A DNA stretch of 64,000 bases from Pseudomonadota bacterium. Its GTDB lineage: Bacteria > Pseudomonadota > Gammaproteobacteria > Steroidobacterales > Woeseiaceae. Positions 28,485 through 62,340 of the stretch are shown one piece after another. Both the position numbers and the translations under genes were made by a program. Each line of letters opens with the position of its first letter. The first letter of the stretch is position 1. The stretch lies in the NCBI GenBank assembly GCA_022572185.1, contig JACZWL010000009.1, positions 1 through 64,000 on the forward strand, in the 5' to 3' direction. Under the pieces are notes generated by a model that was not told the DNA's origin, did no database searches, and saw only the letters and a list, made by a program, of their open reading frames with translations.

Positions 28485-29022
28485 GACCGTCTCCCTCGCA
28501 TTGTTGCGATATGCTCAGGTGGATAGACGGTCGCCGAGTCGAAAATCAATCGATTCGGCAGCTTTCCACTGAATTGCTGTCCCGCGCCCCATGCGGACAT
28601 CGGCAACCCACACCGGACATCATTCGACCGACTACTGATGGGTGAGGTGTCTAATGCGGGTTGGTATTGGCCGGACTCTTATGGTCGGGAATTCTCATGT
28701 CGTCATTCGATTTAACATTTTCCCGAAACCAGACTCGCTGAAAATTGACAGCATGATCAACGCTGTGCAACGATTCACACTCGTTTGAAAAAGGCACACC
28801 TGTCGAAAGGCAGGGCCGCAAAGCCACCGGTCTAAGGGGATATCCTATGATAGCGGGGTCGCCGATCCGAATTGCCGGATGCGACATTTCTTGCCGTCGC
28901 AGGCAACCCTCTTCATTGCTCTGATCCTCGCTCGCAAGAGCCCTTGGATTCCCGAGTGATCATGCTGGCTTTGCTCGTTTTCTTCTCCAAACGAGATGGT
29001 CGCAACCCAATAGGAGCCAGCA
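28485..29022. other. Divergent intergenic region with a riboswitch
   Basis: About 540 bases separating a minus-strand operon from a plus-strand gene. The rightmost 240 bases hold the GEMM riboswitch (see its entry), a hairpin TGCGAC/GTCGCA (28880-28901) right after it, and a short frame of 26 codons at 28879-28959 with hydrophobic codons. Nothing else was recognised in 28500-28780. Confidence 0.6.
28785..28872 (+). ncRNA. Cyclic di-GMP-I (GEMM) riboswitch
   Basis: The + strand matches the c-di-GMP-I aptamer: GGCACACC, then the CGAAAG tetraloop of the first hairpin, GGGCCGCAAAGCCACCGG (the GCAAAGCC core), UCUAA, a second hairpin with CCUAUGAUAGC as tetraloop receptor, and GGGGUCGCCG closing the three-way junction. 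The order and spacing follow the known Vc2 aptamer. It lies about 150 nt upstream of the FAD-linked oxidase, so it should control that gene. A hairpin at 28880-28901 may be part of the expression platform, but no U tract was seen. Confidence 0.9.
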
Positions 29023-30390
29023 ATGTCAGCCAAAGCCAGTACCCTGCGTAGCAGTGGCATATTCTCCAGCCACAAACCTGCAAAATCTACCGTCGTCCGC
29101 CCCATCACTTTCAGAGATATTCAGGGTTACCTGGACACTTCGTCGAATTACCTGGCTCCATTTCGACCGATGGGGGCAGGTAGCTCGTCGACAGACTGCA
29201 GTACAGCGACCGCCGGCACAGTCATCGACATGACCGGCATGGATCAGATCATGAAGATCGACGCCTATGCAGACACCGTCACCGTGCAAGCCGGTGTGCG
29301 ATTACACAGACTCGTCGACGCCCTGGCCGACAACGGCCTCGAACTTGCGGGAAATTACGATCTGATGAACCGGACGGTCGGCGGCGCCGTGGCCGGTGGC
29401 TGCATTGGCCCATCGATGACAGCCGATGGCGCATTCTTTGCCAGGCATGTCATCGGCATGAAGGTCATCACACCGGCGGGCGATTTCCTGGAAATAAACC
29501 AGCAAAAGAAAAATATCCTGAACGCGTTTCGCCTGAGTTACGGCATGCTTGGCATCATTTGCGTCATAACCCTGAGAGTGCGCCCGATCAAGGGATTTGC
29601 CGTGAATCACAGGCGTTGCACCATAGATCAACTGGCTGCGTCAGCAAGCAAACTGGCTACTGCTAATATAGGCTTGAAATTCTATTTGCTCCCCTTCAGG
29701 GACCGTGTCTATCTGGACCTGAGGAGCTACAGCCCTGAGACTCGATCCACGCATTCTATTCCGTGGAAGATAAAAGACTGGGGAGAGAGCACTGTCCTTC
29801 CGCACGTATTCAAGTCGATCGGTCGTATTGTCCCCATAAGCAGATTTCGGTATCGACTGATCGACGGAATCAGTGAAGCCACTCAAGGGCTCGTCAACAA
29901 CCGGCTGGTTTCCTCCGGTGACAACGCGGCGACGCAGTCATTGAGGGTGAACGGCCTCCAGAACACAAGCCCGCTACAATATTCGACGTGGTGTTTTCCG
30001 GCAACCGACTTTTCCGTCGTTGCCAAGGCGTATGAGAATTTTTGTCTCGATACTTATTCCGAGACGCAGTTTCGCTGTGACATGCCCACGGTCGGATTCC
30101 TTCTTGCTCGCGATCGAAGTGCCCTGTTATCGCCCACCTTTGACGAGCCGATGTTTGCTCTCCGCGCCGTATCCACGCCGTGCGGGGGGTGGGAAGACTT
30201 TGTCATCGATTTCGCCGAATTTGCACAACACTGGGGCGGCTCGCCGTTCTTTAACCAGACACGAAGCATCGAACCGGACTACGCCCGACACGCATTCGGC
30301 AGCCGGATCGATTTCTTCAGGAAAATTCGGCGCCAATTAGACCCCGCTAATCGTATGATGAATTCGTTTCTCTCGCAGTATTTTCTATAG
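29023..30390 (+). CDS. FAD-binding oxidoreductase (FAD_binding_4, sugar-lactone-oxidase-like)
   Basis: 455 aa vanillyl-alcohol-oxidase-type flavoenzyme. FAD domain: LAPFRPMGAGSSSTDCS near residue 45, IDMTGMDQIMKIDAYADTVTVQAG and DLMNRTVGGAVAGGCIGPS (pyrophosphate loop). The C-terminal substrate domain ends with FRKIRRQLDPANRMMNSFL, the usual closing motif of this family. Closest type is L-gulono/arabinono-lactone or alditol oxidases, substrate not certain. No signal peptide. AGGAG precedes the ATG. A c-di-GMP riboswitch sits in its leader, tying expression to biofilm/motility signalling. Confidence 0.88.
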   Translation: MSAKASTLRSSGIFSSHKPAKSTVVRPITFRDIQGYLDTSSNYLAPFRPMGAGSSSTDCSTATAGTVIDMTGMDQIMKIDAYADTVTVQAGVRLHRLVDALADNGLELAGNYDLMNRTVGGAVAGGCIGPSMTADGAFFARHVIGMKVITPAGDFLEINQQKKNILNAFRLSYGMLGIICVITLRVRPIKGFAVNHRRCTIDQLAASASKLATANIGLKFYLLPFRDRVYLDLRSYSPETRSTHSIPWKIKDWGESTVLPHVFKSIGRIVPISRFRYRLIDGISEATQGLVNNRLVSSGDNAATQSLRVNGLQNTSPLQYSTWCFPATDFSVVAKAYENFCLDTYSETQFRCDMPTVGFLLARDRSALLSPTFDEPMFALRAVSTPCGGWEDFVIDFAEFAQHWGGSPFFNQTRSIEPDYARHAFGSRIDFFRKIRRQLDPANRMMNSFLSQYFL

Positions 30391-30445: not shown

Positions 30446-30469
30446 GGGAGCCCGTCCTGACGGGCGATT
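30446..30469. repeat. Dispersed GCCCGTC/GACGGGC palindrome (copy 3)
   Basis: GGGAGCCCGTCCTGACGGGCGATT; the stem GCCCGTC/GACGGGC is perfect here. Related copies: 15985-16004, 23261-23285, 39375-39400 and 39431-39457. Confidence 0.7.
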
Positions 30470-30691
30470 TTCAATCCAAATCCGCATTTCATGCATCTAA
30501 GGGTCGAAAGGCTGGTATTGCAGCCCGGATTTTTGCCCGGTTCGGACCCTCGAAATCAGCCGTTATCGACAGTCAGATGGTTACCAGGTCTCTTGTATTT
30601 AAAACATAATTTGAGGCCCTGCTTACCAGAGACTCCATAAATCATTGAAAAACAGGAGAAATCGGTAAGGTTTGGGTCAAAAACAGGGGTA

Positions 30692-30731
30692 TTGCGTTAT
30701 AGTTATCTAGTGTTATACTTCACTATAACAC
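30692..30731 (+). promoter_or_regulatory. Promoter with overlapping palindromic operator for the RND operon
   Basis: TTGCGT (30692) and TATACT (30714) with a 16-nt spacer make a good sigma-70 promoter. GTGTTATA (30710-30717) and TATAACAC (30724-30731) are perfect complements separated by 6 bases and cover the -10 box. That is the form of a TetR- or MarR-type operator. No regulator gene of such a family is present in the window. Confidence 0.65.
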
Positions 30732-60792: not shown

Positions 60793-62340
60793 TTATCCTG
60801 ATTCGCTGTCGCCGGGCACAGTGTCTTCAGCATTTCCGCGTAAGAGCCGCCTGTACATGTCCGACTGGAAAAGCTCATCGGGATCGACGCGTTGTTTAAT
60901 CGCGAGAAACTCGCCGTACTTCGGAAAAAGCATTCGGAACTGGGCTCGCGTCAATACCATGTCTTTCGCCAGATGAACCTTGCCGCCGAATCGAATAACA
61001 GACTCAACGAGATCATCAACGAACCGATTCATTCGCTTTACATGACGCCTGTTCGGATGCAACTCGAAGTTAAGACTGTATCCATCTTCGGCAAAGGAGA
61101 TCAGGTAATCATCCTGCCGGTGCACCCGCATGATCAGCTTTGCCGGCAGGCAGGGTGACGCCTGACATAAATTGATCATCTCCGTAATTGCTGTCCGTGC
61201 CTCTTTGCGCGGAAATATCACCTGAACGGTATATCCACGAAAGCCACAGACGGCCGTTGCAGACGGGATCATAAAACTTGCGTCGAAGTTATAGCGCAGA
61301 AAACTCTCGACATTATCGGCAGAATGCAGACGGTGTCGAATGCGACTGTAGAAGAAATAGAGCTTGTTAAACAGGAGTACGGAAATTTTCTGAATTTGCA
61401 GCATGGTGGTAACCACAAACTCCGTAATAGGACTCAACATGCGAGCCTGACGAAGCCGTGCTTCCAGTCGCGCGAAACTTGCCGTGACCTGGGCTCGAAT
61501 CTCGTCCGGCGTGCCGTCCCGCTCGACCCAGCGCGTCGCATGAACGACTGCCCGGCCTAGCCCTTCGCCCTTTGTACATGTATCCAGCCAGACAACTGCG
61601 AAGTCGCTGGTCTCCTCAACTTCCTTCATGTGCTCGAGTAATTGCTCCACGTTTCCCACCGGGGTACGCGAAATTTCGAGAAAGGGCGAGGGAATTTTTT
61701 GCAAGCGGAGTGTTGCCTGTACAACGATGCCCATCAGGCCCAGCCCGCCTACTACGGCCTGAAAGAGCGGTTCGTCTCTATCGCGATCGACGTCCAGCAC
61801 CTCACCCGAGGCAGTCAGCAACTTCAGGGCCACGACCTGATCGCCAAAATTTCCAAGTCGCCAGGCGTCTTTGCCGTTCACATTGCCGCCGATGGCGCCG
61901 GCTACAGTAATTGTCGATTCCGATGGAATTGCGGCAAGGGCGAGGCGCAGGTGAAGGATACGCTTGAAAATATCGATCATTCTGACGCCCGGTTCGACGA
62001 CCATCAGGCCCGTACTCTCGTCAAATTCAAGAATTCGATCGAGCTTCGACGTGTCGAGGATCACATTTTGATCGTTCAGAATAATATCGCCGTAGCTGTA
62101 GCCGCCGCCGCGCGGGCAAATGGATAAGTTGTTGCGTTTACAGAACGATACCGCTTCCCTGCACACCGCCTCACTGGTGGGATAAGCCACCAGGCAATCT
62201 GCTTGTTTCGAACCAACCAGCGAAGATACGGACTCCCATTGCATGTAGTCCGGCAGTGATTCGGTGATATGCGGTCTCAAGTGTTTACCGTTGGCAAGAG
62301 CTGTATCAATGACACGCTGTTTCCGGGTTCGCGACACCAT
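60793..62340 (-). CDS. DprE1-like FAD-dependent oxidoreductase
   Basis: 515 aa flavoprotein of the vanillyl-alcohol-oxidase fold. N-terminal FAD part: ICPRGGGYSYGDIIL, TITVAGAIGGNVNGKDAWRLGNFG and VVGGLGLMGIVVQATLRL. C-terminal GKVHLAKDMVLTRAQFRMLFPKY and RVDPDELFQSDMYRRLL match the closing motif of decaprenylphosphoryl-beta-D-ribose oxidase (DprE1). DprE1 with DprE2 converts polyprenyl-P-ribose to arabinose in actinobacteria. A gammaproteobacterial homologue next to polyprenyl-sugar-type genes suggests related sugar-lipid oxidation. No DprE2 is in the window. Confidence 0.85.
   Translation of the reverse strand: MVSRTRKQRVIDTALANGKHLRPHITESLPDYMQWESVSSLVGSKQADCLVAYPTSEAVCREAVSFCKRNNLSICPRGGGYSYGDIILNDQNVILDTSKLDRILEFDESTGLMVVEPGVRMIDIFKRILHLRLALAAIPSESTITVAGAIGGNVNGKDAWRLGNFGDQVVALKLLTASGEVLDVDRDRDEPLFQAVVGGLGLMGIVVQATLRLQKIPSPFLEISRTPVGNVEQLLEHMKEVEETSDFAVVWLDTCTKGEGLGRAVVHATRWVERDGTPDEIRAQVTASFARLEARLRQARMLSPITEFVVTTMLQIQKISVLLFNKLYFFYSRIRHRLHSADNVESFLRYNFDASFMIPSATAVCGFRGYTVQVIFPRKEARTAITEMINLCQASPCLPAKLIMRVHRQDDYLISFAEDGYSLNFELHPNRRHVKRMNRFVDDLVESVIRFGGKVHLAKDMVLTRAQFRMLFPKYGEFLAIKQRVDPDELFQSDMYRRLLRGNAEDTVPGDSESG

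Follow-up and report, generated by a model that had tools for sequence, protein, structure and literature searches.

Class I (GEMM-I) riboswitches for c-di-GMP usually control genes for motility, pili, adhesins or the matrix. In the 64,000-nucleotide stretch of DNA analysed here, hereafter called the window, such an aptamer instead stands ahead of the gene of a VAO-fold dehydrogenase. This raises the question of whether the enzyme is a genuine target of c-di-GMP and, if so, how it would be controlled. Here, we compared the locus with its orthologues at the level of the aptamer, the leader, the protein and the neighbouring genes. The reading that we favour, with a probability of roughly 0.7, is that a standalone flavin dehydrogenase of the sugar or sugar-lactone type is made under the control of a class I c-di-GMP riboswitch in the 5' leader of its gene, and that this riboswitch acts as a translational OFF switch. 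The features of the locus are collected in Table 1.

Table 1 Features of the riboswitch and oxidase locus (window positions).
Feature	Position	Strand	Basis
Candidate -35 hexamer TTGACA	28745-28750	+	sequence, inference; absent from promoter scan, no convincing -10 behind it
c-di-GMP-I (GEMM-I) riboswitch aptamer	28784-28867	+	RF01051 77.9 bits, RF03167 67.4 bits; covariation in 54 orthologous aptamers
G20 (Vc2 numbering), ligand contact	28793	+	sequence; role from PMC9049102
Aptamer core strand GCAAAGCCA, complementary to leader 28966-28974	28818-28826	+	sequence complementarity
A47, stacks between both ligand guanines	28820	+	sequence; role from PMC9049102
C92, ligand contact	28862	+	sequence; role from PMC9049102
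155-nt leader (expression platform)	28868-29022	+	sequence, fold
Candidate anti-Shine-Dalgarno UGCUGGCUUUGC	28963-28974	+	fold; dual complementarity
Shine-Dalgarno AGGAG, 6 nt before ATG	29012-29016	+	sequence, fold
VAO/PCMH-fold FAD-linked oxidoreductase, 455 aa (P0001)	29023-30390	+	Pfam FAD_binding_4, ALO; predicted fold
Terminator-like hairpin GCCCGTCCTGACGGGC GATTTTCAAT after the oxidase gene	30450-30475	+	consensus scan

The aptamer and its ligand pocket

A cmscan search of the whole window gave a single match at gathering score, which agrees with an earlier note on this DNA that had seen no other gene-control RNA. The match was named c-di-GMP-I-GGC (RF03167; cut-off 59, E 8.8e-14, full length). 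The same segment also matches RF01051 (cut-off 35, model positions 1-87, E 1.6e-15 per genome). This is the significant plus-strand hit that the earlier note had proposed as the check on its class I c-di-GMP aptamer, and the motifs that it quoted, the CGAAAG tetraloop, the GCAAAGCC core and the GGGGUCGCCG closing arm, are all present. RF01051 and RF03167 belong to one Rfam clan, and their per-genome E-values at this site are nearly equal (1.6e-15 and 1.0e-15, respectively), so that the GGC label is a result of clan competition. The window aptamer, which has the same fold, element order, tetraloop and G20/A47/C92 pocket as Vc2 of Vibrio cholerae (RF01051 type), is a typical member of a known riboswitch class, and it is predicted to bind accordingly.

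In class I aptamers, the conserved A47 sits stacked between the two guanines of c-di-GMP, and G20 and C92 are treated as conserved binding-site residues (PMC9049102). All 70 orthologous aptamers, a set that includes a few identical or overlapping loci, have G20, A47, C92 and C93. Because G20, A47 and C92 are all present in the window, its pocket is of the c-di-GMP type and, judged from these residues, intact. Position 20, which would be A in a 3',3'-cGAMP aptamer, is G in the window and in the whole set. The printed consensus of RF03167, from which the meaning of 'GGC' was read, has CGCGAAG (G47), whereas the window has CGCAAAG; on account of A47, the assignment of the window aptamer to the GGC variant was rejected. 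Many ordinary A47 aptamers, in the window and at the orthologous loci, receive the RF03167 label through clan competition, and automated annotation that simply adopts the top clan match would misname their ligand class.

The c-di-GMP-I fold was evaluated on 54 orthologous aptamers. Standard pairs fill 96% of the cells, and 93 cells have double changes compared with 26.5 in shuffles. The covariation score for P1, P2 and P3 is 0.328, a value reached by none of 500 shuffles, and slid versions of the fold collapse. Furthermore, the core pair C22-G45 is swapped to U22-A45 in 15 orthologues. By these comparisons of sequences, the orthologous aptamers are real RNA structures.

These data bear on two other readings of the aptamer. 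A GGC-type variant with another ligand than c-di-GMP would agree with RF03167 being ranked best in its clan, but it is very improbable given the 77.9 bits of RF01051 at a nearly equal E-value and the joint presence of A47, G20 and C92 in all 70 orthologous aptamers, the window's included. That the aptamer has decayed and lost its function is scarcely credible: the window's own leader platform is not clearly structured, but all ligand contacts are intact, the helices covary, and the aptamer has been kept across families of the order.

The oxidase and its pairing with the riboswitch

The oxidase P0001 matches the Pfam families FAD_binding_4 (84.6 bits) and ALO (26.9 bits, cut-off 23.1). An AlphaFold2 model built from 30 orthologues (pLDDT 78, pTM 0.80) has the VAO fold and, among solved structures, comes closest to those of alditol oxidase (8ot8, Z 37.7), L-galactonolactone dehydrogenase (8qmy, Z 37.0) and DprE1 (Z about 34). 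The FAD_binding_4 score together with the Z-scores of 34-38 to VAO-fold enzymes places P0001 in the VAO/PCMH superfamily. It resembles L-galactono-1,4-lactone dehydrogenase, AldO and DprE1 in having the VAO fold over most of its length and in FAD_binding_4 plus ALO, but its identity to them is 17-20%. All NCBIfam equivalog or subfamily matches of P0001 are far under their cut-offs, the best one scoring 105 against 292; the scores for L-galactonolactone dehydrogenase, sugar-1,4-lactone oxidase and DprE1 are 80.8, 71.6 and 71.3 against cut-offs of 396.8, 458 and 500, respectively. The 'sugar or sugar lactone' label is a provisional one, drawn only from the fold and from weak profile matches.

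Members of this superfamily with covalent FAD have a His at the flavin-linking position, whereas the oxidase family has Thr or Ser there by alignment. At its GxGHS-type motif, the family reads GAGTAST or GAGSSST, which aligns with GSGLSPN of L-galactonolactone dehydrogenase. This alignment suggests that the FAD of the oxidase is bound non-covalently. A second, distant protein with FAD_binding_4 and ALO (515 aa) is encoded elsewhere in the window, at 60793-62340 (-), with no Rfam riboswitch there.

A scan of 84,980 genomes gave 39 orthologues of the oxidase at 46-68% identity, all from gammaproteobacterial or proteobacterial metagenome-assembled genomes, many of them labelled Woeseiaceae; one distant actinobacterial protein came in addition to these. 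Three of the 39 were left out since the contig end cuts before the leader. In 36 of the 36 informative orthologues, exactly one c-di-GMP-I aptamer lies directly 5' of the gene on the same strand, and in those with an assigned start the aptamer end is 0 to about 155 nt from the start codon. Forty further upstream regions, a few of which overlap the first set, were selected so as to cover additional families in the order, and the aptamer is present in 33 of the 39 that have enough upstream DNA. The remaining six, which gave no Rfam match even at E<=1, come from five genomes of one related family and one further genome. In the oxidase tree, this family is placed, without starred support, beside an aptamer-bearing family, and a loss of the aptamer in it is plausible. 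At depth the tree is poorly resolved and compatible with a single or a multiple origin of the pairing, and the orthologous loci share ancestry and are not independent counts. Within the order, 102 of the 296 genomes sampled contain the oxidase clade, compared with only 2 of 274 genomes sampled across the class, one of which is the window's own.

The earlier claim that the aptamer is coupled to an FAD-linked VAO-type enzyme is thus borne out by the Pfam domains and the fold match, with very strong comparative support. The order-wide retention of the pairing in these sequences is strong evidence that the target matters. No report of a c-di-GMP-I riboswitch paired with a VAO oxidase was found in the titles and abstracts searched, a search that many subscription papers fall outside, and the oxidase is probably a core and previously unrecognised target of c-di-GMP.

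Leader platforms and the direction of the switch

The orthologous leaders fall into three types by the spacing between aptamer and gene and by the place of the Shine-Dalgarno. In the first type, found in nine relatives, the ATG follows the aptamer after 0-1 nt, and GCGGAG, which is a Shine-Dalgarno about 8 nt before the ATG, replaces the GCGGGG conserved in the aptamer. All 9 abutting cases have the A at this position, as do 8 of the 61 others, counts that come from related sequences and are uncorrected for shared ancestry. In the second type, a GGAG overlaps the 3' end of the aptamer. In the third type, 60-155 nt lie between aptamer and gene, and in 14 of 15 short leaders of this type GUGUCUUUG (once GUGCCUUUG) is conserved although the sequence on either side varies. 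The leaders can be described as a natural series, in which one aptamer has been rewired to different translational platforms before the same gene.

Folds of the leader only usually pair GUGUCUUUG with the Shine-Dalgarno GGAGACA or GGAGGCA. RNAalifold, when applied to aptamer and leader of 15 relatives, pairs it unprompted, in 14 of them, with the aptamer core CAAAGGCAC. These two pairings exclude each other and would make a simple translational OFF switch. The CUUUG of the element pairs with GGAG via two wobble pairs, which would be understandable if the element must also match the CAAAG of the aptamer. Across 21 leaders, the mean unpaired value of the Shine-Dalgarno is 0.14 compared with 0.32 in shuffles (p 6e-4, for related sequences that are not independent).

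In the window, the corresponding element UGGCUUUGC is the exact complement of the aptamer strand GCAAAGCCA, and the overlapping UGCUGGCUUU complements GGAGCCAGCA (29013-29022), the pairing of the candidate anti-Shine-Dalgarno with the ribosome site being 28963-28972 with 29013-29022. Of 20,000 shuffled leaders, 77 contain an element with such dual complementarity, in a test chosen after the element had been seen. The Shine-Dalgarno of this leader is no better hidden than in shuffles (0.27 vs 0.19 unpaired), and the fold shifts with the length of coding sequence included. A scan of the leader found no transcription terminator on the + strand, and control is probably translational.

We propose that, at low c-di-GMP, the aptamer core would be partly unfolded and its CAAAG-containing strand would hold the leader element (GUGUCUUUG in the relatives, UGGCUUUGC in the window), which would leave the Shine-Dalgarno free so that the enzyme is made. 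At high c-di-GMP, the aptamer would close and release the element onto the Shine-Dalgarno, and translation would stop. In the subgroup with GCGGAG inside the aptamer, the ligand-stabilised fold would cover this site directly. The OFF direction is that described for Vc2, a translational switch in which the ligand masks a distant ribosome site (PMC9262584 and its reference 61), with the likeness drawn at the aptamer level. For the window's own leader, in which the platform is weakly supported, the OFF direction is a prediction towards which we lean.

Neighbouring genes, host genome and significance

In the window's own family, the riboswitch and the oxidase are often followed by a PadR-like regulator, and then by one or more HlyD-type adaptors and an RND pump, names that were given by sequence inspection. 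Among the other sampled families, the riboswitch stays on the oxidase and the pump is absent. Because these families share no common neighbour, the unit of conservation is the riboswitch plus the oxidase and not an operon. No matrix or polysaccharide gene recurs near the oxidase in 40 loci, nor in twelve loci that reach other families. The idea, put forward earlier, that the oxidase produces or alters a sugar of the matrix or surface thus finds no support: exopolysaccharide genes are not among its conserved neighbours, what is conserved beside it in its own family is an RND efflux operon, and a switch that is off at high c-di-GMP, as predicted, fits matrix synthesis poorly. Between the oxidase and the HlyD-type gene of the window, at 30692-30719, there is a promoter-like pair TTGCGT...TATACT; it is absent from the promoter scan, and is consistent with the pump genes being transcribed separately.

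The conserved order of oxidase, PadR (where present), HlyD and RND genes could also mean that the riboswitch mainly serves the downstream efflux operon, with the oxidase merely the first gene of the transcript. We consider this improbable in view of the terminator-like hairpin 3' of the oxidase, the gaps, mostly of 45-390 nt, that separate the oxidase from the next pump-group gene, and the families that lack the pump but keep the riboswitch on the oxidase. Another alternative keeps the same c-di-GMP aptamer but reverses the sign: in an ON switch, the ligand would free the Shine-Dalgarno, or block Rho or leader structures that stop transcription, and sessile cells would be the ones that make the enzyme. 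Both ON and OFF switches are known among GEMM-I riboswitches (PMC9262584), and the unconstrained fold of the window destroys the 3' strand of the aptamer yet still covers the Shine-Dalgarno, so that the switch could act elsewhere. However, the conserved element of the relatives, which pairs exclusively with either the aptamer core or the Shine-Dalgarno, and the ribosome sites embedded in the aptamer both point to OFF, and an ON switch seems unlikely.

Beyond the translational OFF switch itself, it is an even question whether the locus represents an old, order-wide member of the c-di-GMP regulon. This would be a lineage-restricted flavin dehydrogenase under one riboswitch, of which the neighbours were replaced and the translational platform was rebuilt at least two times, with an anti-Shine-Dalgarno element competing for the aptamer core and with a Shine-Dalgarno inside the aptamer.

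The window's own genome (3.14 Mb, 96% complete) has 16 GGDEF, 10 EAL and 10 GEMM-I matches. The genes behind the other GEMM-I matches include those of an Ig/fn3-domain protein, an M23 peptidase and a PagL-like lipid A deacylase, and several without a Pfam match. Those with a Pfam match have envelope or surface functions, which are usual targets of c-di-GMP-I riboswitches. Three of the aptamers in this genome, C50:2050-2162, C37:23914-24028 and C85:1394-1511 (L020, L021 and L025, respectively), have C21-G46 for G21-C46 and a long P3 insertion that is partly common to them. A fourth (C27), which is cut short, has C21 with A46. The C21-G46 aptamers form a distinct subfamily. A weaker match at C91:2177-2262 (L022; 41.9 bits), which is followed by the gene of a secreted-looking protein, has A20 in an uncertain alignment; A20 in GEMM-I is associated with recognition of 3',3'-cGAMP. 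At C42:77335-77418 (L019:4336-4419), the GEMM-I match ends on the first base of the ATG of a gene that encodes 472 aa and has no Pfam match; this is likely another aptamer-embedded ribosome site. In the order, c-di-GMP-I riboswitches are very numerous, with up to 21 in one genome (G009) and 17 and 15 in two others (G026 and G044), and one genus with genomes of 1.1-2.0 Mb (g5) has none.

Most Woeseiaceae species are attached to sediment, biofilms or particles, according to a genome study of the family that mentions neither riboswitches nor c-di-GMP (PMC12175321). The families that carry the pairing are abundant, mostly sediment- or surface-attached marine bacteria. The targets of conserved signalling riboswitches are usually tied physiologically to the signal, and a standalone enzyme that keeps its c-di-GMP aptamer in several families would offer a direct lead to an oxidation step controlled by c-di-GMP.
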